Part shown: positions 1,199 through 22,917 of the stretch, in pieces | Numbering within the stretch: position 1 is the stretch's first letter | Layout: every line of letters starts with the position of its first letter | Source: a virus | IMG/VR virus record: IMGVR_UViG_3300046467_001908 | Span: 1-22,917 of that record | Reading direction: 5' to 3' (one strand) | Length of the DNA: 22,917 nucleotides | Translations under genes and position numbers: made by a program | The notes under the pieces: model-generated | Told to the model about the DNA's origin: nothing | The model's database searches: none | The model's input: only the letters and a program-made list of their open reading frames with translations

Positions 1199-1486
1199 AT
1201 GTATAAATCTTATAGAAAGCAAAAAGGGCCAACGGGAATAGTCGAGGTGACGGCTCAAGAATGCGCCGGTAATGCTGAGAAAATGATTCGTCGATTTATG
1301 AAAAAGGTAAAAAAAGAAAGAATACTTGAGGAAGTGAGGGAGCGATCCCACTTTAAAAAGAAAACAATTATTAGAGCAGAAGCAAAAAGAAACAAAAGAA
1401 GACTAATTAATAAAGTTAACCAACAAAGAGATGCGCTTTCTAAACCTCACTCTTTTGGAAAACGAAGAGGGGCCGCCAGACGATGA
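1199..1486 (+). CDS. rpsU: Ribosomal protein bS21 homologue, phage-encoded
   Basis: The product is 95 residues and strongly basic. Residues about 14-75 follow the bS21 pattern: a short N-terminal strand (IVEV), then IRRF at 30-33, a Lys-rich helix, ILEEVRERSHFKKK at 42-55, and a basic RAEAKRNKRR helix. This matches the cellular LRRFKR...GVLAEVRRREFYEKP...RKRAKA layout in order and spacing. A basic tail (76-95, ending GKRRGAARR) extends beyond the usual cellular length of about 70. bS21 is a small-subunit protein near the anti-Shine-Dalgarno end of 16S rRNA that helps mRNA binding. Published surveys of viral genomes found bS21 to be one of the ribosomal proteins most often carried by phages. 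A role in biasing host translation towards phage mRNA is inference. The start has only a weak AGAAAGAAAG purine tract upstream. The stop overlaps the next start (ATGA). Confidence 0.8.
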   Translation: MYKSYRKQKGPTGIVEVTAQECAGNAEKMIRRFMKKVKKERILEEVRERSHFKKKTIIRAEAKRNKRRLINKVNQQRDALSKPHSFGKRRGAARR

Positions 1487-2563: not shown

Positions 2564-3523
2564 ATGAGCACGATGCTAGAGCAAGCGATAGTTGACGCAA
2601 AATCTTTGCGCGAGGCAGCGATTCAGAACGCCGAAGCCGCCATCGTCGAAAAATATTCGCACGAAGTAAAAGGCGTCGTCGAAAGATTGCTTGAGCAGGA
2701 TGAACCCCCGATGGACGCCCCGTCGGAACCAGAAGCAGATACTTCATTTATCGAAGAGGTCCCAATGGCTCATATAGATGATGAAGAGGATGATATTGTA
2801 GTCGTTGACCTTGATGACATTATCGCCGCAGCCGAAGACGACGACGAGGACGTCTCCCTTGATCGTGAAGAGGTGGCGGATGAAGTGGGTATAGAAATCG
2901 AGGACGAAGATATCCCCGCTAATCGCAGCGACGAAGCTGAGTTGAGCTTGAGTGAAGATGAACTTGTGAATATGTTTAAGGAAATGTTGGTTGTGGATGT
3001 TCCGAAAGAGGCGCTTGCCCAGTCGGAAGAACAACTGGAAAAAGAAGAAAAAGAAGAAGAAGAGAAGGTCGAAACTATCCGTACCGACGGCATGGATGAG
3101 GATGACATTGAAGAATATGAAAGAACCATGGCTAAAAACGAAGCCTTGATCCGAGAAAATAAAAACCTCAAAAAAATCCTGAGGGAATTTAAAAACAAAT
3201 TAGAAGAAACTAACTTGCATAACGCAAGGTTGTTATATGCGAATCGTGTATACTCTGACTCCTCCCTGAATGAGCAGCAAAAGAATAAAATTGCTGATAT
3301 GGTTGGGAAAGCGCGCTCCGTTGAAGAAGCAAAGACTATCTTTGAAACCCTTCAAAAGACATTGGCCAATGTTCATCCGAACAAGGCACAATCATTGTCT
3401 GAAGTTGTTACGAGAAAGTCTTCTGTGATCTTAACGGGCAATCGTCGAGAAGAAACATCTTCAGGCGATAGCAATCCAACTTACAGTAGATGGGCTACAC
3501 TCGCAGGTATGAAAAATAACTGA
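2564..3523 (+). CDS. Prohead core scaffolding protein (gp22-like)
   Basis: This 319-residue protein lies immediately upstream of the major capsid gene, the place of the T4 gene 22 scaffold. The N-terminal half is extremely acidic (Asp/Glu-rich from about residue 48 to 130). A charged coiled coil follows, from about 150 to 220 (EKEEKEEEEK, then NEALIRENKNLKKILREFKN). The C-terminal helical segment (ARLLYANRVYSDSSLNEQQK, then VEEAKTIFETLQKTL) is of the kind seen near the ends of T4-type scaffold proteins. Such proteins form the internal core around which the capsid shell assembles and are then degraded by the prohead protease. Several L/I-x-E tripeptides, the T4-type cleavage pattern, are present. 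T4 gp22 is 269 residues, so this one is somewhat longer. Confidence 0.85.
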   Translation: MSTMLEQAIVDAKSLREAAIQNAEAAIVEKYSHEVKGVVERLLEQDEPPMDAPSEPEADTSFIEEVPMAHIDDEEDDIVVVDLDDIIAAAEDDDEDVSLDREEVADEVGIEIEDEDIPANRSDEAELSLSEDELVNMFKEMLVVDVPKEALAQSEEQLEKEEKEEEEKVETIRTDGMDEDDIEEYERTMAKNEALIRENKNLKKILREFKNKLEETNLHNARLLYANRVYSDSSLNEQQKNKIADMVGKARSVEEAKTIFETLQKTLANVHPNKAQSLSEVVTRKSSVILTGNRREETSSGDSNPTYSRWATLAGMKNN

Positions 3524-3543: not shown

Positions 3544-5373
3544 ATGTCAGTAATAGAAACCCTAACAGAGGGCATCAGAGCACGTTCTCTGGCCCATGAG
3601 GGTGAAGCACTTCTCGCGAAGTGGGAAAGAACTGGACTTCTAGAGGGATTGGACGATAATGCTCGTGGCACTATGTCTCGTCTTCTAGAAAACCAGGCTG
3701 CCCAACTTCTCAAAGAAACCAGTACCATGGGTGCTGGTGACGTTGAAGGCTTTGCCTCAGTTGCATTCCCAATTGTTCGCCGTGTATTCGGCAATCTTTT
3801 GGCACAAAAATTGGTATCGGTTCAACCGATGAGCCTCCCTAGTGGACTTATCTTCTTCCTAGACTTTACGTTTGGTAGCGGATCGTTCATGACCCAAAAC
3901 CCTGCTGCCGGCATGGGTGGGCGTTTGGCTGAACAGCAAGATACGTCGCTTTATGGCGGCGCAGTCGTTGCTGCTGGCTTGGTCAACGGTGTTGATCTTG
4001 CTGGAAACAACAGCCAGTTGAGCTTCTACAACCTTAATAATGGTTACTCTAGCCCAACCGGCTCGATGAACACGCTTCCTGGCGCAATCGGCAAAGCTGC
4101 CGCTACGGCAGGTACGATCGTGGTCGCCGATTCCGGAACTTTCTACACCGCGGCTCAAGACAGCCCCGGCGGTGAATTCTGGAATACGTTGTCTCGCGAT
4201 GCTGCCATGGTAAGTGGAACATCGACATATGTTGTTCTGGATGTCTCCCGTCACTTGTTGACAGGTATGCCCACAGGTAGTGAAGACCTCGCTGCTCTTG
4301 TCTTCTCCGGAAGTAATGGCTTGGGTGGACTGTTGGACGGCATGAACGCTGGTACTACTGCTGTTTCGAGCAGCTACTACTCGCGTGTAACTGCCCACTG
4401 GTCGGGCTCCGCTACGGACTACGTTCGCATGGCGGCTGTTTCGACTGATGGCGGATTGGGTGCTACCACTCTTGGATTGCAAATAATTGCTTCCTCGACA
4501 GCGGCTAGCTTCCCGGTGCAAGATAACTTTGTTGCTGGTGGCGCTCTTGGTTCGATCGTTGGAGCGGGCAACAACCAGATCCCAGGTTGGGGACTGGAAA
4601 ACAACCCGGCTATCCCCGAGATTGATATCAAGGTGGACAGCAGTGCTGTTACAGCGATCTCCAAGAAGCTTAAGGCTAAATGGAGCCCTGAGCTTGCTCA
4701 GGATTTGAATGCTTACCACAACCTCGACGCTGAAGTTGAGTTGACAAGCATTCTGTCAGAGCAGATCGCTCTTGAAATCGACCAAGAAATTCTTAATGAC
4801 TTGGTTGTCGGATCGAAGGAAGTTCTCTTCTGGAGCCGTATGCCCGGTAAGTTTGTGGATCGTGAAAACGGAACAGTTGTTTCGACTTCGCTTTTCCCCG
4901 CCTTTACGGGTACCGTTAGCGAATGGTATGAGACACTTCTTGAGACTATCAATGAAGTGAGTGCTCGTATTCATCGCAAGACACTTCGAGGTGGCGCAAA
5001 CTTTGTCGTCTGCTCGCCAGAAGTTGCTAACATCCTTGAGTTTACCAGTGGCTTCCGTGCGGCCGCCGCTGTTGACGAAGAGGGCGGAAGCTGGGGTGTC
5101 AAGCAGGTTGGTTCGATCAGCCGCAAGATGGACATCCATGTTGATCCTTACTTCCCACGAGCAGTCATTCTCGTAGGTCGCCGAGGCAACAGTTTCCTTG
5201 AGAGTGGGTATGTTTACGCTCCGTATGTTCCGCTGCAAGTCACGCCGACCATTTTTGGTACAGAAGATTTCGTGCCCCGCAAGGGTGTCATGACTCGCTA
5301 TGCCAAGAAGATGGTGCGTCCTGACATGTATGGACTTGTTATTTGCATGGATCTGGTTAACCAGAGCGCGTAA
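3544..5373 (+). CDS. Major capsid protein (gp23-like)
   Basis: This 609-residue protein shows the T4-type capsid landmarks. VQPMSLPSGLIFFLDFTFGS comes near residue 95. The segment IDIKVDSSAVTAISKKLKAK leads into WSPELAQDLNAYHNLDAEVE and then LTSILSEQIALEIDQEILND (about 360-420). FVVCSPEVANILEF follows near 490-505. It builds the hexameric lattice of the icosahedral head. T4 gp23 is 521 residues; the extra length is mainly a Gly/Ser/Thr-rich insertion between about 120 and 350. A candidate prohead-protease site, L-K-E at 56-58 followed by TSTMG, fits the T4 L/I-x-E rule and would remove the helical N-terminal 58 residues. AAGGAG lies nine bases upstream of the ATG. The codon use looks biased, as in a highly expressed gene, and a strong terminator follows directly. 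Confidence 0.95.
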   Translation: MSVIETLTEGIRARSLAHEGEALLAKWERTGLLEGLDDNARGTMSRLLENQAAQLLKETSTMGAGDVEGFASVAFPIVRRVFGNLLAQKLVSVQPMSLPSGLIFFLDFTFGSGSFMTQNPAAGMGGRLAEQQDTSLYGGAVVAAGLVNGVDLAGNNSQLSFYNLNNGYSSPTGSMNTLPGAIGKAAATAGTIVVADSGTFYTAAQDSPGGEFWNTLSRDAAMVSGTSTYVVLDVSRHLLTGMPTGSEDLAALVFSGSNGLGGLLDGMNAGTTAVSSSYYSRVTAHWSGSATDYVRMAAVSTDGGLGATTLGLQIIASSTAASFPVQDNFVAGGALGSIVGAGNNQIPGWGLENNPAIPEIDIKVDSSAVTAISKKLKAKWSPELAQDLNAYHNLDAEVELTSILSEQIALEIDQEILNDLVVGSKEVLFWSRMPGKFVDRENGTVVSTSLFPAFTGTVSEWYETLLETINEVSARIHRKTLRGGANFVVCSPEVANILEFTSGFRAAAAVDEEGGSWGVKQVGSISRKMDIHVDPYFPRAVILVGRRGNSFLESGYVYAPYVPLQVTPTIFGTEDFVPRKGVMTRYAKKMVRPDMYGLVICMDLVNQSA

Positions 5374-8312: not shown

Positions 8313-11300
8313 ATGGCTGACGACGTAAGAAAGTTTAAATTTATTTCTCCTGGCGTTTTCGTCAATGAAATTGATCAATCAGAGTTACCTGCAACCCCCG
8401 GAGCTATCGGTCCCCTTTTAATAGGCTCCGCTCAATCTGGTCCCCTGATGCGACCGATCACGGTAAATTCCTTCAACGATTTTGTAACCATTTTCGGCTC
8501 ACCGCTACCTGGCGGAGTGGGAGGGGATGTGTGGAGAAACGGTAATAAGACCGCTCCTACTTATGCCCCTTATGCTGCCCAAGCGTATCTCGATACGCTG
8601 GGAGGACCACTAACATTTATTCGAGCAGGTGGACTTCAGAGTACCAGCGCCACCGCCGCCGGCTACGCCGGCTGGCAAGGAGGCTCTCTTAGTGCTACCG
8701 ATTCGGAAGGTGGTGCCTGGGGACTGGTTGTGTTCCCATCTAGCTCGGTGGATGAAACTGCTGGCGTTGATGCGACTAGCGTCCTTATTACAGATGGCAC
8801 CCCAGTAAACCCGGCGGACACAGGAAAAGAACTTATATTTACCAACTGGGATGCCACTACGCACACGATTACACTAACTAACGGTGGGGCGACCACCGCC
8901 ACTACGGTCGAAATTAGTCTAATTGGTAACCCCAACGATTTTGCTACCCAACTAAAAGCCTCTCTTGATGCGGCTGTCGTTGCGACCACGTTTAAGGGAA
9001 CTGTTGCAGCAATCGTTGACGACAGCAACGGTAATCCGCGTCTTATTTCTCTTACTTCGAGTGCGCCGGCTGATCAGGAGGCTTCTGGCAACCAAGATAT
9101 CACTGGCGATCTCCTGAGTGCCGGCGGCGATGAATTAAAGGTCAATCCAGCCGGCAACGATGGTACTGCCGCCTCGGGCGACGAAGCCTTTACAGGCGGG
9201 GTTAGCACTCAGTTCGTCTCTCCGGTAACCGGCGCTTTGGCGGGGGTTGTTTATTGCTCATCGGGACGCGTGCTTCTTTCGGGAACGCTTCCCGCAAATA
9301 CGAGTGTCATCTCGGCTTCGGCTTGTGAGCTAGTTGAATCTGATGCCAACGGAAATCTCCAGATGGTCGTTAGTTCGGATGGCACCGACGCTGCTGGAAA
9401 AATACACACAGTTAAGTTCAACTTTGACCCAAGCAGCAAGAACTTTATTCGCAGCGTTCTTAACACGGATCCCACTGTCACCAATAGTACTATTACTGAC
9501 ACTGATACCCGGACCTCCAACCAGGGGGGTAATTACTGGCTTGGCGAAACCTATGAAAATCTTTTAGCTCAAAATTCTCTTACTAGTATGGGCGTATTAG
9601 GGCGTTTTGACGATAGCGCAACCATCCTTAATACTAAATTCCTCGCAGCCGTCCTTCCCCTAGAGAACCACGCGGCTACTACCCAACAGCTTAATGACCG
9701 CCAATACGCGGCTCAAAAGGCAACGACTGGATGGTTTATTTCGCAGGACACAAATGTCGATCATACCGCGTATGTCTCAACTAACATGAAAAAGCTTTTC
9801 CGATTTGAGGCTCTAGATGCCGGTGAAAGCGTTCAGAGAAAAGTAAAAGTATCGATCTCAAGCATTAAATATCCTCAGGGTGACTTTGAGGAATACGGCT
9901 CATTTAGTATTCTTGTCCGCACCTTATCCGATTCAGATAGTCGCATGGATATTTTAGAGCGATTTGACCAAGTGAATTTGAACCCGAGTTCGGCCAATTA
10001 CATTGAACGTATCGTGGGGGATAAATATGTAGAATACAGCGAAAGCCAAGAAAGATTGATTGAATACGGAAAGTATCCCAATCAGTCCGCATATATTCGG
10101 GTGGTTGTATCGGATGCCGTCGCAGCGGGCGGCGAAGATGCTAGCCTCATTCCTTTCGGCGTTTACGGTCCAGTCTCCTATCGTCCGTTTAGTGTGATTA
10201 GCGGCTCAGGCGCACCTACACAGTTTGGTTCCTACCTAAATGTGTCTACCTCATTCGGAGCGACCACCGCCCCAGCAGTTATGACCATGCTAGCCGGAGG
10301 AGGCACAGACCGTTTTGGTACGCTTGGGGGGTCTACTCTTTCGGGCGCTCCCTGCGCTGGACTTATAAACCTTACTTCAGATCCTGCCTCGGCTCCTAAT
10401 ATGTCTTTCTCTGGCTCTGTTCTTTTCCCAGGCGTTCCTTTGAGAAAACAAAATACCTGGGGTTCTCCCAAAAATCTTAGGAGCACCTTCTGGGGAGCCT
10501 GGACAGGCAAGTCCACATCGAATGTTAATTTTAATAACGCTATTATTGATATGGTCAGAAACCAGGCCAGCGGAGTTCAGGGTAACCAGACTGCAACCAC
10601 CCTTTCTGTGGCGGTGAGCGGCAACTTAGTGGATGCACTATCGTCGCCCTTGGCAACTTCTTGGGTGTTTAGTCTGGATGACATTGTGTCGGTGGACGGT
10701 GTATCCTACAACTACATTTCCGGCTCCCGAGCCGACGGCACGAGCCTGTCTGCTGCGAGCGGATCCTACACCTATTCGATTGATGCGGGACTGGATCGGT
10801 TTACGGCGGTGATGTTCGGAGGTACAGACGGTCTCAATTTAACTGAGAAAAACGCTTTCCGAAACGCTCTGATGGACGATAAAACAGAAACCACAAGCTA
10901 TGAACTTTACAGCCTCAAGTCTGCCATCAACATGGTGGCTGACGTTGACGATTACCAGTACAACATTATTTCTGTCCCAGGTGTCACCCAACCTCTTGTC
11001 ACTGATCATCTAATAGATATGGTCGAAGACCGAGCCGATGCCCTGGCACTTATCGATATTCCTAATATCTATATGCCGGCATCTGATAGTAATGCCACGG
11101 AGCAAACTCGCCGCAATTATACTGTTGCGCAGATGATAAGCAATCTCCGAGGCAGAAACCTTAATAATAGTTACGCTGCCACATACTCGCCGTGGGTTAT
11201 GATACGGGATACTCGTACTAATCGCCTCGTGTGGGTGCCGCCGACGGTCCCGGCACTGGGGGCTTTAGCCACCACTGATAAGACCTCGGCTCCTTGGTTC

Positions 11301-11813
11301 GCTCCCGCAGGATTTAACCGAGGAGGGCTTTCCGACGGTGATGGAGGACTTCCGGTGCTTGATGTGAGCAAGAAGTTGAATGCGGACGATCGGGACGATC
11401 TTTACGAAGTCAATATTAACCCGATCGCCAAGTTCCCAGCAGAAGGTATTGTGATCTTTGGTCAGAAAACTCTTCAACAAACAGCATCGGCGCTGGATAG
11501 GATTAATGTTCGTCGCTTGATGATTTACCTCAAGCGTGAAATCTCATTCATTGCATCGAGATTATTGTTTGAACAAAACGTTCCATCTACCTGGGCCAAT
11601 TTTACGTCCCAGGCGCTCCCAATACTTGATAGTGTTCGAGCACAATTCGGCATCACCGACTTTAAGCTTGTTTTGGACGAATCGACAACTACGCCGGATT
11701 TGGTGGATAGGAACATTATCTATGCTAAGTTGTTCATCAAGCCCGCCCGATCGGTGGAATACTTCGCCATCGACTTCATTGTCACGCGTAGTGGTGCAAG
11801 TTTCGAGGACTAA
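8313..11813 (+). CDS. Tail sheath protein (gp18-like), oversized
   Basis: This 1166-residue protein begins with the sheath signature: FISPGVFVNEIDQS, then LPATPGAIGPLLIGSAQSGP, then VNSFNDFVTIFGS (residues about 10-63). It ends with the conserved sheath C-terminal domain: LNADDRDDLYEVNINPIAKF, GIVIFGQKTLQQT, INVRRLMIYLKREISFIASR, and the last strand VEYFAIDFIVTRSG. Sheath subunits surround the tail tube and contract to drive it through the cell envelope. T4 gp18 is 659 residues. Here roughly 500 extra residues lie in the middle, much of it Gly/Ser/Thr/Ala-rich beta sequence (for example about 135-310 and 630-860), which should decorate the outside of the tail. The frame is open throughout, with no sign of a fusion error. 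Confidence 0.93.
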   Translation: MADDVRKFKFISPGVFVNEIDQSELPATPGAIGPLLIGSAQSGPLMRPITVNSFNDFVTIFGSPLPGGVGGDVWRNGNKTAPTYAPYAAQAYLDTLGGPLTFIRAGGLQSTSATAAGYAGWQGGSLSATDSEGGAWGLVVFPSSSVDETAGVDATSVLITDGTPVNPADTGKELIFTNWDATTHTITLTNGGATTATTVEISLIGNPNDFATQLKASLDAAVVATTFKGTVAAIVDDSNGNPRLISLTSSAPADQEASGNQDITGDLLSAGGDELKVNPAGNDGTAASGDEAFTGGVSTQFVSPVTGALAGVVYCSSGRVLLSGTLPANTSVISASACELVESDANGNLQMVVSSDGTDAAGKIHTVKFNFDPSSKNFIRSVLNTDPTVTNSTITDTDTRTSNQGGNYWLGETYENLLAQNSLTSMGVLGRFDDSATILNTKFLAAVLPLENHAATTQQLNDRQYAAQKATTGWFISQDTNVDHTAYVSTNMKKLFRFEALDAGESVQRKVKVSISSIKYPQGDFEEYGSFSILVRTLSDSDSRMDILERFDQVNLNPSSANYIERIVGDKYVEYSESQERLIEYGKYPNQSAYIRVVVSDAVAAGGEDASLIPFGVYGPVSYRPFSVISGSGAPTQFGSYLNVSTSFGATTAPAVMTMLAGGGTDRFGTLGGSTLSGAPCAGLINLTSDPASAPNMSFSGSVLFPGVPLRKQNTWGSPKNLRSTFWGAWTGKSTSNVNFNNAIIDMVRNQASGVQGNQTATTLSVAVSGNLVDALSSPLATSWVFSLDDIVSVDGVSYNYISGSRADGTSLSAASGSYTYSIDAGLDRFTAVMFGGTDGLNLTEKNAFRNALMDDKTETTSYELYSLKSAINMVADVDDYQYNIISVPGVTQPLVTDHLIDMVEDRADALALIDIPNIYMPASDSNATEQTRRNYTVAQMISNLRGRNLNNSYAATYSPWVMIRDTRTNRLVWVPPTVPALGALATTDKTSAPWFAPAGFNRGGLSDGDGGLPVLDVSKKLNADDRDDLYEVNINPIAKFPAEGIVIFGQKTLQQTASALDRINVRRLMIYLKREISFIASRLLFEQNVPSTWANFTSQALPILDSVRAQFGITDFKLVLDESTTTPDLVDRNIIYAKLFIKPARSVEYFAIDFIVTRSGASFED

Positions 11814-12479: not shown

Positions 12480-13361
12480 ATGAGTAGAAATGATAGCCGG
12501 ACTGGGCTCGATGAAACCCACGTCCCTCAAGATACCGACATCACAGCCCCAATTGCGGCGAGCACTCCTTCCACGGAGACTCGTCTCAATTGGGCTATGC
12601 CTACTGAAATAGTAGAGCTACCTTCTAGGGGGCGTTTTTACGGACCAGATCACCCTCTTCACGGACAAACTTCGGTAGAAATCACATATATGACCGCCAA
12701 GGAAGAGGATATAATAACCTCCCAAGCCCTCATCCGAGAAGGCGTGGCGGTTGACCGGATGATACAAAGTCTTTTGGTGGAGCGTAATATTGATGTGAAC
12801 ACATTGCTCCTTGGGGACAAGAACGCCCTGATTGTGGCTTCTCGTATTACCGGATATGGACCAGAATATAATACGACTGTCACATGCCCAGCTTGCACCG
12901 AGACAACGAGGCACACTTTTGACTTATTTGAGCAATCCCATGTGGAGTTTGAAGAGGCGATTGCAAGTGGGGATTGTTTTCTCGACGAAAATAATCACTT
13001 GGTGGTGACCCTCCCCTTTTCCCAAGTTGAGGTACGATGCCGGTTTATGACAGGCAAAGATGAAATGGACCAATTCAAAAAATCAAAAAGAAAAAGTAAA
13101 GCCAAACGAGATCAAAGTAATCTTACTGATACCTTCAAGAATTACATTGTTTCCGTGAATGGGAGTAGTGATGCGCTGGATATTCGAACCTTCGCAGAAG
13201 CTATGCCGGCAAGAGATTCGTTTTATCTACGCAGTTTATACGGCGCTGCAACACCAAACGTAGATATGACCCAGAACTTCGAGTGCGAAAATTGTGGACA
13301 CGAAGCGGACATGGAGGTTCCGCTTACCGTGGACTTTCTATGGCCTCGACGACAAGTATAA
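12480..13361 (+). CDS. gp26-like baseplate/tail assembly protein with split zinc ribbon
   Basis: This 293-residue protein contains the T4 baseplate (gp26/T4_baseplate) family core: EIVELPSRGRFYG near 43-55, VEITYMTAKEEDIITSQALI near 66-84, a VDRMIQSLLVERNIDVNTLL helix, GDKNALIVASRITGYGPEY near 112-130, and a region near 196-240 that ends in LRSLYG. Two CxxC pairs, C136/C139 and C269/C272, are set to form one zinc ribbon closed across the helical core. In T4, gp26 acts in baseplate hub assembly. Here, between tube and tape measure genes, a tail-assembly chaperone role is also plausible. The C-terminus overlaps another reading frame, and a candidate +1 frameshift site lies seven codons before the stop. 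Confidence 0.8.
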   Translation: MSRNDSRTGLDETHVPQDTDITAPIAASTPSTETRLNWAMPTEIVELPSRGRFYGPDHPLHGQTSVEITYMTAKEEDIITSQALIREGVAVDRMIQSLLVERNIDVNTLLLGDKNALIVASRITGYGPEYNTTVTCPACTETTRHTFDLFEQSHVEFEEAIASGDCFLDENNHLVVTLPFSQVEVRCRFMTGKDEMDQFKKSKRKSKAKRDQSNLTDTFKNYIVSVNGSSDALDIRTFAEAMPARDSFYLRSLYGAATPNVDMTQNFECENCGHEADMEVPLTVDFLWPRRQV

Positions 13362-13545: not shown

Positions 13546-13617
13546 AGTTTGTCCCCAAATCAAAGAAAAGTGTTTGAAGCGCCTATTTATTTGAGGGATA
13601 GTGCGAGGATATTTTTT

Positions 13618-17858: not shown

Positions 17859-20624
17859 ATGCCGCCGCCCGTCAACCCTACTGAAAAGGCCAGCCTCGCT
17901 AGACAAAATGCCCAATGCTTGTTGGTGAATAATTTTGGCGTGGTCTTACAGAACTCCGATGTTCTCCTCCCGACGATGGGGGTTCGATCTGGGATCAAAA
18001 GCGCCCGCGATGTGCTGGCTGCACAGGCTAGCTCTAATCCCGAGCGCATACCTTTAACAACCCTTGAGACCCTCATTACTTATCATGGGCATCCAGATGA
18101 AGTGGTGAATGCTTTGACTATGGATACTCCCGACCTACCTCCAACAGCATTTATTAACGCCACGCCTGCACAATTATCCTTGTTGCAGCCTCGATTAGAC
18201 TTTTATATTCGGACTAATGTGGTGGACCCCAATAACCCTACACACTTCTTGCCCAAAGATAGAGCAATCCTCTTCAGCGATCATGTCTCGGCCGAGAAGC
18301 AAAAAGGTTTAGCAGGATTTCGAGCAGGGGAAAATAGTGACGTGATCTTGAGGGGAGCGGAGGGCTATAACGTAGGAATTAAAGAATTTACTTGGAACTA
18401 CGACAACAAGCACGAGGGCGACCGTATTATTAAAGCCCAACTCACCTTATATTTTGGATCTATGGCTGAGTTGACTAACCAGTATTATCTTGATTTCTTG
18501 TTTGCCGACGGGAAAAGAAATGTTAACCAACGCACGGCTTCAGAACATTCAACAACAACGGAGAAAATCAAAGAACTAAACAGCAGTTTGGAAAACCGAA
18601 AACGAGCCGTCCGTCAGGGCAGCTATAACGCCAGAAGCCAGTCAAACATCCTTCGAGATTCTCAGCAGCTTAAAGTGATTGTGGGCTGGGAGATGCCATC
18701 TCGGGTGGTGCCTGAGTTGTTTGAATCCGCAGAAGACCAAAAGCAATTCTACCAAGCTGTAAAGAATTCACAGCGTACATTGTTGCTCAACATTACTCAA
18801 TATGATATAAATTTTAATCAAAATGGATCATGCGAGGTAACTATAGAATATATAGCTAGCACTGATGCGTATATCGGAAGCCCCTCTGCTGATGTTTTCT
18901 CTCACCGTCACCTTCCCAACACGTCCGGACGCGATGAGCGTGATCAGGCTTGGGTAACTGCGGACGAGGGACTTTTAGATTGGGGTGGATTAGGTAACGA
19001 GGTTTGGCCTGAAGGATACCTTAAAAAGGAATACGAGGATCATAAAGGTGGAGTTGGTGGCAAGGAATTTGACGAGAATGATGGCGTCACAAAAATGATT
19101 ATCTATGTAGACGCTGTGATAGCGGAAGTAGAATGGCTGGAACAAAAGCTTCAACTTTTTGACTTACAGGGAGCCAACAATCCTAATGCCTCCAACTCCG
19201 AGGCGGCCAAGAATCATAAAAAATTCAAAGCTTATTTTGACAAGGCAACTGAGGTCCTCCAGCAAGCTTATACTTCCGCACGATCTCTTAAGTACCAAAC
19301 TTTTTTAACTCGAATTCTTGACGATGACAGAGTCTTTTTTCTTGATGCGAAGTATACGGATGTTCGCGGACGTGTTAACCGACAGGGACCCCCTCCTAAA
19401 TACATCCAAGTACGACGACCGAAGTATGAAGGCAACCCGGAAGAGGGGAGTCTCAATCAAAACAAGTATAACAGTTTTAAAAGAAGATTTGTAACGCTCG
19501 CTCAGGTCCAATCATTAGCCGCCACCGCTGGCACGACCGAGAGAGAGTTCCTCGACGCCTCCGCCAGAAACTATGTAGCTGGCTCCGGACAATTGAAAGC
19601 AGGACAGGTCCTCGAAGGCCACGCAAACCAGCAGGGTGGCCGCACAGTTAGGCTTTATTATGTACGACTGGGAGACGTAATACAGGCTGCTTCAGATGCT
19701 GCCGGTCTAAGTGTTGAGAATCAAATTCTGCTGGGCAGTTTTTTACCTCGCTTGTCTAAGTTTCGCTACGGTGGGACCGGCGGCCACCCTGGGGCGTTGA
19801 GCGATTTCCCTGAAACACTTGCAAATCTACCCATTTCTTTAGAATATTTTGGGAATTGGTTTTATGAAAACGTGATTTCCAAAGAGCGAGAGCAATATCC
19901 TTTCCGGAGATTTTTGGACGACTTCCTCAACGGACTCGTGCAACCTATTCTTACTACATTGTGCGGAGATCAAAAAGATTTAAGGATAGGATATACATTG
20001 CACACTGTTGCTGCGGATTTTTTATCACAGACACTGGAGCGAGCTTCGGATTCGTCCACGGCTTCATCTTCGATGCCCACCCGCGAGGGCAACCCTTGGT
20101 CGCTTCAGTTTGCGGGTCGCGACTTTCTGGAAATTGTTCGGAGCGCCGCCTACCGAGGAGCCCAAGCCGGCATCGATCTCCCGTTGAGCACTTTATTACT
20201 TATTCATGCAGAGCAGGTAAACGATACTCGAACGGGAGATGTTGATCACGACCAGAAAGACGGGGTGTACCACTTCTTTTTAGGGGCCGACCGAGGGCTC
20301 GTAAAACAATTTAATTTTTCGAAGAAACAGATGCCACAACTTAGAGCTATGAACATAGAAAGAGTAAACAAAGGAGCTACAAAGGCAGGCATCTTGGTCC
20401 TCCCTATGGATGTATCGCTAACGATGTTTGGAAACGGGCTACTGCGCAATGGGAGTATGATATTTGTTAATGCAGATTTTGGGCTCGGTACTCGGGTAGC
20501 TGACCAGCTAGCATTGGGCGGCTACTATAGAGTATATAAGTGTGCTCACACTATCCGTCCGGGCTTTTACGAGACTACTATTGAGTGCATATTTGAAAGA
20601 CCAAGGAATTTCCCTGATGGCTAA
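17859..20624 (+). CDS. Large baseplate hub-like protein
   Basis: This 921-residue protein starts two bases after the wedge gene. An early segment, NVGIKEFTWNYDNKHEGDRI then AQLTLYFGSMAELTNQYYLD, is followed near 310-340 by LLLNITQYDINFNQNGSCEV, a beta domain. The C-terminal 120 residues (VYHFFLGADRGLVKQFNFSK, then VSLTMFGNGLLRNGSMIFVN, then LALGGYYRVYKCAHTIRPGF plus YETTIECIFE) resemble the end of tail hub proteins (gp27/gpD-like), where a G-x-G-x-x-x-x-G strand leads to GGYY-x-V-x-x-x-x-H-x-I-x-x-G-x-Y-x-T. Hubs form the trimeric centre of the baseplate between tube and spike. T4 gp27 is 391 residues, so this one carries about 500 extra residues. I see no lysozyme motif. The stop lies eight bases inside the next gene. 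Confidence 0.6.
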   Translation: MPPPVNPTEKASLARQNAQCLLVNNFGVVLQNSDVLLPTMGVRSGIKSARDVLAAQASSNPERIPLTTLETLITYHGHPDEVVNALTMDTPDLPPTAFINATPAQLSLLQPRLDFYIRTNVVDPNNPTHFLPKDRAILFSDHVSAEKQKGLAGFRAGENSDVILRGAEGYNVGIKEFTWNYDNKHEGDRIIKAQLTLYFGSMAELTNQYYLDFLFADGKRNVNQRTASEHSTTTEKIKELNSSLENRKRAVRQGSYNARSQSNILRDSQQLKVIVGWEMPSRVVPELFESAEDQKQFYQAVKNSQRTLLLNITQYDINFNQNGSCEVTIEYIASTDAYIGSPSADVFSHRHLPNTSGRDERDQAWVTADEGLLDWGGLGNEVWPEGYLKKEYEDHKGGVGGKEFDENDGVTKMIIYVDAVIAEVEWLEQKLQLFDLQGANNPNASNSEAAKNHKKFKAYFDKATEVLQQAYTSARSLKYQTFLTRILDDDRVFFLDAKYTDVRGRVNRQGPPPKYIQVRRPKYEGNPEEGSLNQNKYNSFKRRFVTLAQVQSLAATAGTTEREFLDASARNYVAGSGQLKAGQVLEGHANQQGGRTVRLYYVRLGDVIQAASDAAGLSVENQILLGSFLPRLSKFRYGGTGGHPGALSDFPETLANLPISLEYFGNWFYENVISKEREQYPFRRFLDDFLNGLVQPILTTLCGDQKDLRIGYTLHTVAADFLSQTLERASDSSTASSSMPTREGNPWSLQFAGRDFLEIVRSAAYRGAQAGIDLPLSTLLLIHAEQVNDTRTGDVDHDQKDGVYHFFLGADRGLVKQFNFSKKQMPQLRAMNIERVNKGATKAGILVLPMDVSLTMFGNGLLRNGSMIFVNADFGLGTRVADQLALGGYYRVYKCAHTIRPGFYETTIECIFERPRNFPDG

Positions 20625-22182
20625 GAAACCACCTAATGGCGTAGTCCCGTTTTTTGTTAGCGGTGTTGGGGCTACCAATAGCACCAGCGCCAAAGTTAGC
20701 TTCGAAAATCGCAAAGCATACCGCACCCAAGTGTTTAGCGACGACTTGATCCCAAATGTAGCTTATACCTGGGGGAAGGACAGATTCTACGGAAAAATAA
20801 ATACCCGAGGGGAGGCTATTCTCCCTCGACAGGCTTTTTTAAAGTCTCTTAAATATACATCTAATAATCAAAATTATTTTGCTATGAATTTTGTAGCTGA
20901 TGCCTGGCGGGATTTCGCCGAAAAACTCAGAGAGCTTCGCGATAATAATGTGATCTATGCAGAAAGTCCTTGGTCCTCCCCTTTGATACATAAAGCCTAC
21001 CAAGATCCCGCCACTATATACAGTTCTTACATGAAGGAAGAAGTCTTCGGGACATTTACTAATATATACTTGGGTCGCTCCACCTCTGCGCGCAAAAGAG
21101 TGAAAGACTTTAATACCTTCCTTCAGGAATTTTCCCCGTTTTTTGAAAGAGTTGCCTCTAAGACCGGCTTTATCACCTACTCGGGGATGGTTGAGAGTGG
21201 GTGGACTACGCCTCTTATGTCTGGGCTCGTTATTGAGATCGCTACCGAATCTTATGACAAGGATGAGGACAAGGCAGCAAAGTTCGGGGACTTTAATTTT
21301 GGGGTGGTAGCCAACGTTGCCGCCCAATATGGATTTAAGATCGACCGCAACATTCCCTGGAGGCTCGTGGCTGATTTATCTAGTAAAGCCATGCAGGAGT
21401 ATATGATCGGGGTGCCTATCGCCGGAATAGAGGGGGAGTTTCAGAACCGCCTCGGTGAGTGCGGGGAGTTAATGCAAAGAGATCCTGGCTATATGCCTGA
21501 TTTTTATGGATACTCTCAAATCCCCGGACTGGAGAGTATCAAGCGGCATATTTCGGCGTATATAAACACCCAACGGGAGCTAACGCCCGGATATATAATT
21601 TATCGGAACATTAAAAACACGGCAGACCAACAAAAAATAGCAGCAATAGTTTTTGCCAATGCTTATATGACAAGTTGGACCCAAGATATGGCTCTTCTCA
21701 CCCCATATCTCCGTAACATGTATAATTCCTATGTCAAGGGAAATCCGGTAGTTTCTTCATATGTGCCCAACCCCACTTCTTCTCGGTCCCCAGGGCTCGG
21801 AATTAATTGTGCATCTAGGACGGTCTTGCATCGTAACGAACCTATTGATGCGACAACAATAGGGGGACCCGCCGCTCGTTATTACTACCGCTGGGCCTAT
21901 AAGTGCTTTTATACTCTGCGCTGCGGCGAGCGGCACCTGAAGTATGGGCGAGATGAAAGACAAAGACACCTTAGGGAAGCCACCAACCGCTTTGACTTCG
22001 GCGGGGGAGCCGCCTTTCAGAGATATGCCTCCACGATTCAATACATCCATGAAGAGTTTATAGGACCCTTTCAGACAAAATTCTTAAACATAGAGACAAT
22101 ATCAGATATGCTAGAAGAAGGAGAAAGTGATGCTCTTTCAAACTCTCGACGACAAAACCGAGTGCGTCGGGATTTATACTAA
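20617..22182 (+). CDS. Large protein of unknown function, probably virion or tail-associated
   Basis: I chose the ATG at 20617, with AAGGAA eight bases upstream; it overlaps the hub-like stop by eight bases and gives 521 residues. A start at 20542 would add 25 out-of-frame-looking residues. Recognisable blocks are FSDDLIPNVAYTWGKDRFYG, SKTGFITYSGMVESGWTTPL with MSGLVIEIATE, NIPWRLVADLSSKAMQEYMI near 250-270, and a basic, Tyr/Arg-rich C-terminus. I associate the PWRLVADLSS motif with large uncharacterised proteins near baseplate genes of aquatic phages. No catalytic, membrane or fibre motif is evident. Baseplate or virion location is inferred from the tight coupling to the hub-like gene. Its last 53 bases overlap the polymerase start. 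Confidence 0.65.
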   Translation: MAKKPPNGVVPFFVSGVGATNSTSAKVSFENRKAYRTQVFSDDLIPNVAYTWGKDRFYGKINTRGEAILPRQAFLKSLKYTSNNQNYFAMNFVADAWRDFAEKLRELRDNNVIYAESPWSSPLIHKAYQDPATIYSSYMKEEVFGTFTNIYLGRSTSARKRVKDFNTFLQEFSPFFERVASKTGFITYSGMVESGWTTPLMSGLVIEIATESYDKDEDKAAKFGDFNFGVVANVAAQYGFKIDRNIPWRLVADLSSKAMQEYMIGVPIAGIEGEFQNRLGECGELMQRDPGYMPDFYGYSQIPGLESIKRHISAYINTQRELTPGYIIYRNIKNTADQQKIAAIVFANAYMTSWTQDMALLTPYLRNMYNSYVKGNPVVSSYVPNPTSSRSPGLGINCASRTVLHRNEPIDATTIGGPAARYYYRWAYKCFYTLRCGERHLKYGRDERQRHLREATNRFDFGGGAAFQRYASTIQYIHEEFIGPFQTKFLNIETISDMLEEGESDALSNSRRQNRVRRDLY

Positions 22183-22917
22183 TAACCGGCTTATTTTTAG
22201 CCCACAGGAGTTCCCTACAGACCTGACTGGTACCTGGGCTTACACTCCTCATGTAAGGTCTCAAGACGTCGAATACGCTTCTTTATATTTGGAGGGAAAA
22301 GCTATTGAAGATGTGATACCGGAATACCTACAGGATGATTGGAGTGATGTTACTGAGAGGATCGCCGCCTTTAAGCGGTCTTTGCGTCTAGCCAAGGTTA
22401 GCCGATCCGAAAATTGTTTCTTCGATTTAGTCCCCAGTCGATTTTTGTCGGAATGGTGCGAAGTAAAAAACCAAATCACCGGACATGTCCTTGAGACAGT
22501 GCCCCGCCCTGAACGGTATGATTTCTATAAACACGTTGCGATGCTGATTGGGGACATAGCGACTCAAGAGGTGAAATTCGATCGGCGCTTTATAACCTCT
22601 TTCGTGGGGCATAATAAATTAGGAAATTACGCATCGAAAATGCTCGCTGTTAATCCCCGAGTATGCTATAACCAGTTTGGAACGAAGACGGGAAGGCTCA
22701 CCACCAAAAAGAACACCCTCCCAATTTTGACGCTACCTAAATCTTTTAAGAAAGCCATCACACCTCAGAACGATTACTTTTTAGAGATCGACTTCAACGG
22801 AGCCGAAGTCCGGACGTTACTTGGTATCTTAGAAAAACAACAACCCGCCGGGGACATTCACGAGTTTCATCTGCACCATGTATTCTCAAATTTTGACAGC
22901 CGATCCCAAGCAAAAGA
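22130..22917 (+). CDS. Family A DNA polymerase, 5' part (truncated by window edge)
   Basis: The ATG at 22130 has GAAGGAG six bases upstream and lies 53 bases inside the previous gene. The frame is open for 262 codons to the window end. Residues about 126-175 look like the thumb. TKTGRL at 185-190 matches the TATGRL block of Pol I. FLEIDFNGAEVR at 217-228 is motif A, with D221 as the catalytic metal ligand and E226 as the steric-gate Glu (Pol I D705 and E710). GDIHEFHLHHVF at 241-252 matches the DIH-x-x-x-A-x-x-x-F block. The enzyme copies the phage genome. Only about 180 residues precede the polymerase core, too few for thumb plus a usual 3'-5' exonuclease domain, so proofreading is either absent or encoded separately. 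Motifs B and C lie outside the window. Confidence 0.9.
   Translation, partial: MLFQTLDDKTECVGIYTNNRLIFSPQEFPTDLTGTWAYTPHVRSQDVEYASLYLEGKAIEDVIPEYLQDDWSDVTERIAAFKRSLRLAKVSRSENCFFDLVPSRFLSEWCEVKNQITGHVLETVPRPERYDFYKHVAMLIGDIATQEVKFDRRFITSFVGHNKLGNYASKMLAVNPRVCYNQFGTKTGRLTTKKNTLPILTLPKSFKKAITPQNDYFLEIDFNGAEVRTLLGILEKQQPAGDIHEFHLHHVFSNFDSRSQAK

Follow-up and report, generated by a model that had tools for sequence, protein, structure and literature searches.

Why should a gene for ribosomal protein bS21 lie among the head genes of a T4-like phage, and what would its product do there? The question is raised by a 22.9-kb IMG/VR virus record (IMGVR_UViG_3300046467_001908), a fragment of a T4-like phage. 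The whole stretch of 22,917 nt was analysed and is termed here the window. A preliminary description, made from the letters alone, had read positions 1199-1486 as a phage bS21 gene embedded in a late head cluster and coupled in translation to a putative decoration protein, with a product that might favour initiation on late phage mRNAs. The features that bear on the question are given below in their order along the window; the bS21 gene and its product are referred to as S21, and SD denotes the Shine-Dalgarno sequence.

3-185, + strand: C-terminal end of a prohead (head maturation) protease, gp21-like, cut by the window edge; PHROG 207, E 6.4e-4
185-739, + strand: ORF X, between protease and U; without Pfam or PHROG match
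791-1180, + strand: U, 129 aa, the upstream partner of S21; conserved N-terminus MKKSELKNIIKECVKEVIFEEG; without Pfam or PHROG match
1186-1191, + strand: AGAAAG element where a canonical SD would be expected, 7 nt ahead of the ATG of S21, from reading of the sequence
1199-1486, + strand: phage bS21 (rpsU homologue), 95 aa, ATG to TGA; PF01165, PHROG 21469, model and fold match
1467-1472, + strand: GAGGGG, candidate SD of D1 within the last codons of S21; -7.4 kcal/mol, 10 nt before the D1 ATG
1483-1956, + strand: D1, a beta-sandwich and possible capsid accessory (decoration) protein; ATGA overlap with S21; model pLDDT 77
1973-2452, + strand: D2, a tandem copy of D1, 72% identical to it
2564-3523, + strand: acidic protein, putative prohead scaffold/core, directly before gp23; without Pfam or PHROG match
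3544-5373, + strand: major capsid protein gp23; PF07068, E 1.7e-70; PHROG 138, E 1e-67

A bS21 gene in the prohead cassette

The bS21 identity first proposed was upheld by profile searches, if by a small distance. The Pfam family PF01165 (Ribosomal_S21) matches residues 24-68 of the window ORF with 27.5 bits and E 2.5e-6; at 0.5 bit above the cut-off of 27 this score is thin, and marginal for the window sequence alone. PHROG 21469, 'ribosomal protein S21', matches the same ORF at E 6.9e-5. Among eight tested relative records of 81-191 kb, seven give PF01165 scores of 28.9-42 bits and the eighth is without a match. The family pattern is maintained through 107 unique S21 sequences of the relatives, a set that includes the window's own and ranges from proteins near the usual bS21 length to long forms extended at both ends. 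Structure prediction, which had been suggested as a check, gave a helical AlphaFold2 model (pLDDT 78.7, pTM 0.42) with helices at residues 19-22, 26-39, 42-50 and 55-81. Only six PDB chains were ranked by Foldseek for this model, namely five mitochondrial S21 chains and one cohesin chain; the mitochondrial chains have VIA Z scores of 3.9-4.4 and rmsd values of 9.6-10.7 Å, which are weak, with the family correct. The core of S21 has a pN/pS of 0.29 in 42 close pairs, the mark of purifying selection, and between the window S21 and that of one relative (L002) dN is 0.17 and dS 0.73. At the level of sequence, these data confirm ORF 1199-1486 as a true phage bS21 homologue under purifying selection.

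The gene order in the window is prohead protease end, ORF X, U, S21, D1, D2, scaffold-like gene and gp23. The proposed place in a late head cluster therefore stands, as the protease end is upstream of S21 and gp23 downstream, each not more than four genes away, and all are on one strand. S21 is on the same strand as the structural genes in the window and in every tabulated locus. Sheath, tube, hub, tape-measure and wedge genes follow downstream of gp23, with PHROG matches to tail sheath and tail tube proteins; a gp23-type capsid protein together with sheath and tube genes is characteristic of a T4-like head cluster. The truncated protease end is 55% identical over 62 columns (E 3e-22) to the protease of a relative, L202, which itself belongs to PHROG 207 (E 2.5e-56). 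That relative has no gene at the ORF X position between protease and U. Matches to ORF X are found in 61 of 197 records (the window and its copy L001 counted), and matches to the scaffold-like protein in 162 of the 197. The assignment of the latter as prohead scaffold/core is suggested by its place and its acidic composition. By analogy with the internal proteins of T4, the strongly conserved N-terminus of U might be a peptide that directs it to the head. A search of the window for tRNA genes found none.

S21 and D1 share an ATGA overlap at 1483-1486, and the same overlap is present in the relative L002. Of the proposed coupling to a decoration protein, the coupling thus has good support; the decoration identity is less secure, since fold matches to D are a mixture of capsid and beta-sandwich proteins with query-normalised TM values of about 0.2-0.5, which are weak. 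Most relatives have a single D match, and two are present, as in the window, in five others (L123, L138, L156, L163 and L182). In the relative L005 (8265-13842), D matches are spread over two short ORFs and the 4.85-kb ORF that follows them; D there is perhaps split and also part of a fused or enlarged surface protein.

To collect relatives, viral contigs were scanned three times: the S21 query gave 36 loci, and from the capsid and U queries the best 80 of 490 and the best 80 of 101 were kept. Pooled, these scans gave 195 loci, with some contigs duplicated. Homologues were detected by phmmer at E 1e-3 with the window proteins, and S21 additionally by a profile of those matches; with this procedure, distant U and D proteins may be missed. 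The capsid set (best 80 of 490; 69 unique loci) was chosen independently of S21. Within it, S21 is found in 13 of 14 unique contigs that have at least 6 kb upstream, in 19 of 20 with at least 2.5 kb and in 24 of 28 with at least 1 kb, with the upstream length measured from the scaffold gene or, for loci that have no detected scaffold, from the capsid gene. The one long exception is L113, a record of 80.8 kb that has a related capsid protein but no S21. By these counts, S21 is shown to be near-universal among the nearest sampled capsid relatives, which are mostly uncultured T4-like phages.

The neighbours of S21 are also constant. In the pooled scans, S21 lies directly downstream of U and on the same strand for 67 of 68 unique U genes, the remaining U being near a contig edge. 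Among 110 unique S21 genes, U is within 1.5 kb in 105 and D within 150 nt downstream in 99, and both flank S21 in 94. The sampled loci thus show a U-S21-D triad on one strand as the usual arrangement in the prohead cassette. A tblastn search of a phage collection gave no match to the window S21, to the window U or to the S21 of one relative. These negatives are of low sensitivity, because a profile does find S21 in two phages, Microcystis phage Mel-JY01 and LR756508.1.

Start signals within and before S21

A basic C-terminal extension had been pointed out in the window S21. It is present, in a protein that has 31 Lys/Arg vs 9 Asp/Glu in 95 residues, and had been viewed as a possible phage-specific contact. 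Its coding sequence appears to have a second use. D was located for 95 of the 107 S21 sequences; in 71 loci the two genes abut (S21 stop to D ATG, -4 to 6 nt) and in 24 the gap is larger. In the 71 abutting loci, the window included, the SD of D is inside the final codons of S21. AGG accounts for 107 of 249 Arg codons in the tail (last nine positions) vs 114 of 1000 in the body of these genes (p 5e-27), and for 46 of 127 vs 55 of 504 in 37 less similar representatives (p 1.5e-10). The mean pairing energy of the tail in the abutting loci is -9.4 kcal/mol, vs -3.4 after synonymous resampling. The real tail pairs more strongly than the resampled one in 71 of 71 loci, and more strongly than at least 95% of resamples in 46 of them; for the 37 less similar representatives the real tail is stronger in all 37 and is beyond 95% of resamples in 20.

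The position of the signal is consistent with this. The distance from the SD to the D ATG has a standard deviation of 1.4 nt, smaller than the 2.6 nt of its distance to the S21 stop, and these two spreads are a fairer comparison than the rank correlation of -0.87 for SD spacing, which is partly arithmetic in that both quantities contain the gap. RR, KR or RK are the final residues of S21 in 69 of 71 abutting vs 6 of 24 separated loci, a contrast that is confounded with ancestry because most separated loci are short-S21 relatives. Along the protein, pN/pS rises from 0.29 in the core to 0.59 in the C-terminal helix and 0.78 in the tail (42 pairs), and the corresponding pS values are 0.50, 0.19 and 0.25. 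The low pS in helix and tail is expected if nucleotides are constrained there, and the high pN/pS of the tail implies that the tail protein itself is weakly constrained. The mean top-residue frequency is 0.64 in the helix extension, 0.62 in the core and 0.43 in the tail; the helix extension before the tail (about residues 69-82) is, by this measure, conserved as protein.

Since the SD of D is written over the end of S21, the basic residues there are, at least in part, the outcome of a nucleotide signal; the terminal Arg/Lys tail appears to double, in part at least, as the SD of D. Thus, a phage-specific contact is not needed to account for the last ~9 residues, and such a role may still be open to the helix extension. 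Among titles and abstract openings in one open literature library, no SD within a phage S21 tail was found, and no AGAAAG leaders (see below). A 'phage-specific basic tail' can be the disguised start signal of the next gene, and this calls for caution with the extensions of phage ribosomal proteins in general.

These data also bear on an alternative that we consider unlikely, in which S21 belongs to the virion or the inner head: as a basic protein it would be packaged together with U and D, then injected or bound to DNA in the head, its ribosomal role being lost or secondary. The position of S21 in the prohead cassette, with U and D on either side in 94 of 110 genes, and the excess of basic residues would fit such a component, and packaging is raised as a possibility in the available text of Chen et al. 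(2022; PMC9723584). However, the core is under purifying selection and the family pattern is kept in 107 sequences, and the terminal basic residues are at least partly explained by the overlapping SD. A function in the ribosome is the reading preferred here.

The start of S21 itself differs from that of D. Strong SDs had been claimed for most late genes, and the count agrees: an SD core (GGAG, GAGG or AGGA) precedes 15 of the 17 window starts examined (0.88 vs 0.19 in shuffles), a tally that omits the starts at 13549 and 22127 and the ORF at 20542. The only two of the 17 without an SD core are S21 and the hub gene. Across relatives, with starts chosen by alignment, AGGAG is present in leaders of the capsid gene (90/91), D1 (49/65), tube (29/37) and sheath (14/17), and in none of 84 S21 leaders. 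Any SD core is found before the neck gene in 90/91, the gene g7317 in 61/67, protease in 26/38, U in 46/90, scaffold in 37/74, X in 9/19, g6772 in 28/91 and S21 in 23/84. As judged from its leaders, the S21 start is SD-poor, though other genes share the scarcity of a plain SD. Scaffold leaders nonetheless pair well by energy, a fraction of 0.84 being at -6 or below.

In place of the plain SD, S21 leaders often have the AGAAAG element. It is present in 51 of 84 leaders with alignment-chosen starts and in 39 of 94 by the start rule, where some starts are wrong; the latter count compares with a shuffled mean of 4 and a maximum of 11 in 200 rounds. The same element is found before U (37/90) and hub (20/30), rarely before D1 (6/65), sheath (1/17) and tube (1/37), and in no leader of capsid (0/91), neck (0/91), g6772 (0/91), scaffold (0/74), g7317 (0/67), X (0/19) or protease (0/38). 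Before S21 it is mostly 7-9 nt from the ATG, the usual SD position, and in many leaders it shares letters with the end of U, final codons and stop, and so may partly mirror the U sequence. The element may act as a weak SD or pair with a longer 16S tail. With a hypothetical 16S 3' end CUUUCU, the pairing value is -6.1, vs -3.9 in shuffles with such a tail. Work on extended SD motifs of Staphylococcus aureus (PMC13009471) may bear on AGAAAG. In the window, the hub gene (12480-13361) has the AGAAAG type of leader, unlike its neighbours. Four Bacteroidota rpsU leaders (L210, L211, L219 and L220) contain AGAAAGTGGGTGA, which is partly like the AGAAAG of phage S21.

Host type and known phage bS21 genes

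The SDs of the late genes had further been taken as support for selection of phage mRNAs by bS21. That argument fails on two controls. The first, a Flavobacterium phage whose capsid protein is related and whose 160-kb record is free of S21, has no SDs (0.04 vs 0.06 expected, 26 starts). In the second, three contigs with a Bacteroidota-type S21, SDs are nearly absent (0.08, 0.18 and 0.07 vs 0.07, 0.09 and 0.08 expected). The proposition that strong SDs show bS21 action was rejected on these grounds, and both controls indicate that SD use probably follows the initiation mode of the host and not the possession of bS21. The S21-bearing Mel-JY01 has an SD fraction of 0.55 vs 0.14. Among loci of the relatives, 14 of 15 have 0.40-0.80 vs 0.12-0.22, and the other, L149, has 0.31 vs 0.19, all with crude gene calls. 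From these leaders, the host of the window phage most likely uses SD sequences.

Can the host be named? One phage contig with protease, U, S21 and D (L202, 1968-3699) is binned in a Flavobacteriaceae metagenome-assembled genome (MAG), which also has its own bS21. The contig itself is SD-rich (0.62 vs 0.14, 8 starts), and the strong SD use in the lineage argues against the host hint that the binning gives. A scan of genome contigs with the S21 alignment A1 gave 89 pattern stretches, with one relative, the MAG-binned phage contig, and no near cellular bS21. The S21 core, with 55 residues, would make a poor tree. At the position of Tyr54, the 107 phage S21 sequences in one MAFFT alignment have R in 88, K in 13, E in 2, a gap in 2, S in 1 and C in 1; the window has Arg, and there is an aromatic residue in none of the 107 (2 gapped). 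In Bacteroidota bS21 sequences the position is Tyr in 6 and Arg in 10 of the 16 loci, out of 30, that were recovered by a regular expression. Since Tyr occurs in only 6 of these 16, the Tyr54 residue alone cannot place the host.

Bacteroidetes phages described by Chen et al. (2022; PMC9723584) offer both likeness and difference. According to the available text, their bS21 genes are beside terminase, portal, prohead protease and major capsid genes, late transcription of bS21 was proposed and was seen in metatranscriptomes, and C-termini are conserved within clades; in 900 published phages, the protease is within ten genes of bS21 in 310 and the capsid gene in 154. The window bS21 is likewise close to prohead protease and capsid genes. 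In those phages, however, bS21 is on the reverse strand, whereas here it is on the same strand and coupled to D, and the Tyr54 position is aromatic in all 61 phage bS21s of that study, as against 0 of 107 here. SD use also differs, the window lineage being SD-rich and the three Bacteroidota-type S21 contigs almost without SDs.

Mel-JY01 (PP395634.1) is closer in gene order. It has protease, a hypothetical protein, an annotated RpsU (PF01165, 44.9 bits), two ORFs, a scaffold-like gene and the capsid gene on one strand, as in the window, but its S21 is shorter and the stretch searched has no D homologue and no U-profile match (E up to 1). The best capsid match in the phage collection is LR756508.1 (L197), a 484-kb phage record. 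Its S21 (169725-169877, 40.4 bits) is about 2 kb before the capsid gene and on the same strand, as in the window, but there is no U or D profile match in the stretch searched. For huge phages, the available text of Al-Shayeb et al. (2020; PMC7162821) describes rpS21 with basic, aromatic N-terminal extensions, proposed to favour phage mRNAs; the window S21 is instead extended at both ends, its C-terminal extension carrying the SD of the next gene. The bS21 of Pelagibacter phage HTVC008M (AGE60443) is of the same family, but its gene is between CobS and Hsp20, about 16 kb from the capsid gene. Thus, the existence of phage bS21, its head-gene context and the idea of late expression are already known from published work; the U-S21-D triad, the SD in the S21 tail, the SD-poor S21 start and the missing aromatic residue at the Tyr54 position are new.

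A possible role in the host ribosome

The explanation we favour, and regard as rather probable when taken whole, is that S21 is a real, late and near-universal phage bS21 that acts in the host 30S subunit, with a tail that doubles as the SD of D. The protein would be made late, together with the head proteins, and with slower synthesis per mRNA than for D or the capsid protein, this low dose being deduced from RBS strength as its sole basis. It would enter the host 30S, where it would replace or stand besides the host bS21, adjacent to the anti-SD, and would keep initiation efficient during virion protein synthesis. The tail of S21 would supply, at least partly, the strong SD for D. The most speculative step would be a preference of the modified ribosomes for phage mRNAs. 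Late expression of the window S21 is suggested by its position; for other phages, Chen et al. (2022; PMC9723584) measured it. Substitution of the phage protein into host ribosomes is likely by analogy. In the available text of Mizuno et al. (2019; PMC6375957), HTVC008M bS21 enters E. coli 70S ribosomes, which have ~5% of wild-type activity in vitro, a value that fits a poison or a mismatch equally well as a helper.

The two kinds of leader invite another reading, which we hold to be quite unlikely: a translational switch, in which the AGAAAG leaders of U and S21 would serve unmodified ribosomes and the strong SDs of D and capsid genes would serve ribosomes with phage bS21, so that S21 damps its own synthesis. 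AGAAAG is indeed confined to few genes (S21 51/84, U 37/90 and hub 20/30 vs capsid 0/91). There is also a precedent of reverse sign: the available text of McNutt et al. (2023; PMC9976891) describes rpsU autoregulation in Flavobacterium johnsoniae, where the bS21 level is linked to SD strength and bS21 controls initiation on its own mRNA via an exceptionally strong SD, whereas the phage rpsU here is without a plain SD and D and capsid genes have one. If true, the switch would be the mirror image of the Flavobacterium system, with ribosomes shifted to SD-rich virion mRNAs. However, 23 of 90 U leaders contain AGAAAG plus an SD core, and some head genes free of AGAAAG are also without a plain SD. 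In addition, short-S21 relatives often have SD-like pairing at S21 (with the start rule wrong in some loci), SD use in the controls tracks the presumed host type, and the hub gene, with the same AGAAAG leader, has no known link to S21.

Host shut-off is a further alternative. Late genes come after host shut-off in most lytic phages, and late phage proteins depend on the same ribosomes. It is very unlikely that phage bS21 displaces that of the host to leave ribosomes poor at host initiation, lowering host translation and not promoting phage mRNAs, as the ~5% activity of HTVC008M bS21 ribosomes (Mizuno et al., 2019; PMC6375957) might suggest, and that value came from a foreign host.

The lineage provides a simple test setting, with one strand, constant neighbours, a near-universal S21 and two kinds of start signal side by side, and an effect of bS21 on mRNA choice could thus be tested by few reporters.

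Two observations on the remainder of the window may be added. The tail sheath gene (8313-11813) encodes 1166 aa, and the first part of the protein is an apparent long addition, because the best PHROG sheath stretch begins at residue 713. Directly after the late structural genes is a DNA polymerase-like ORF (22127-22915; PHROG 17, E 6e-5), which overlaps the end of the preceding ORF.
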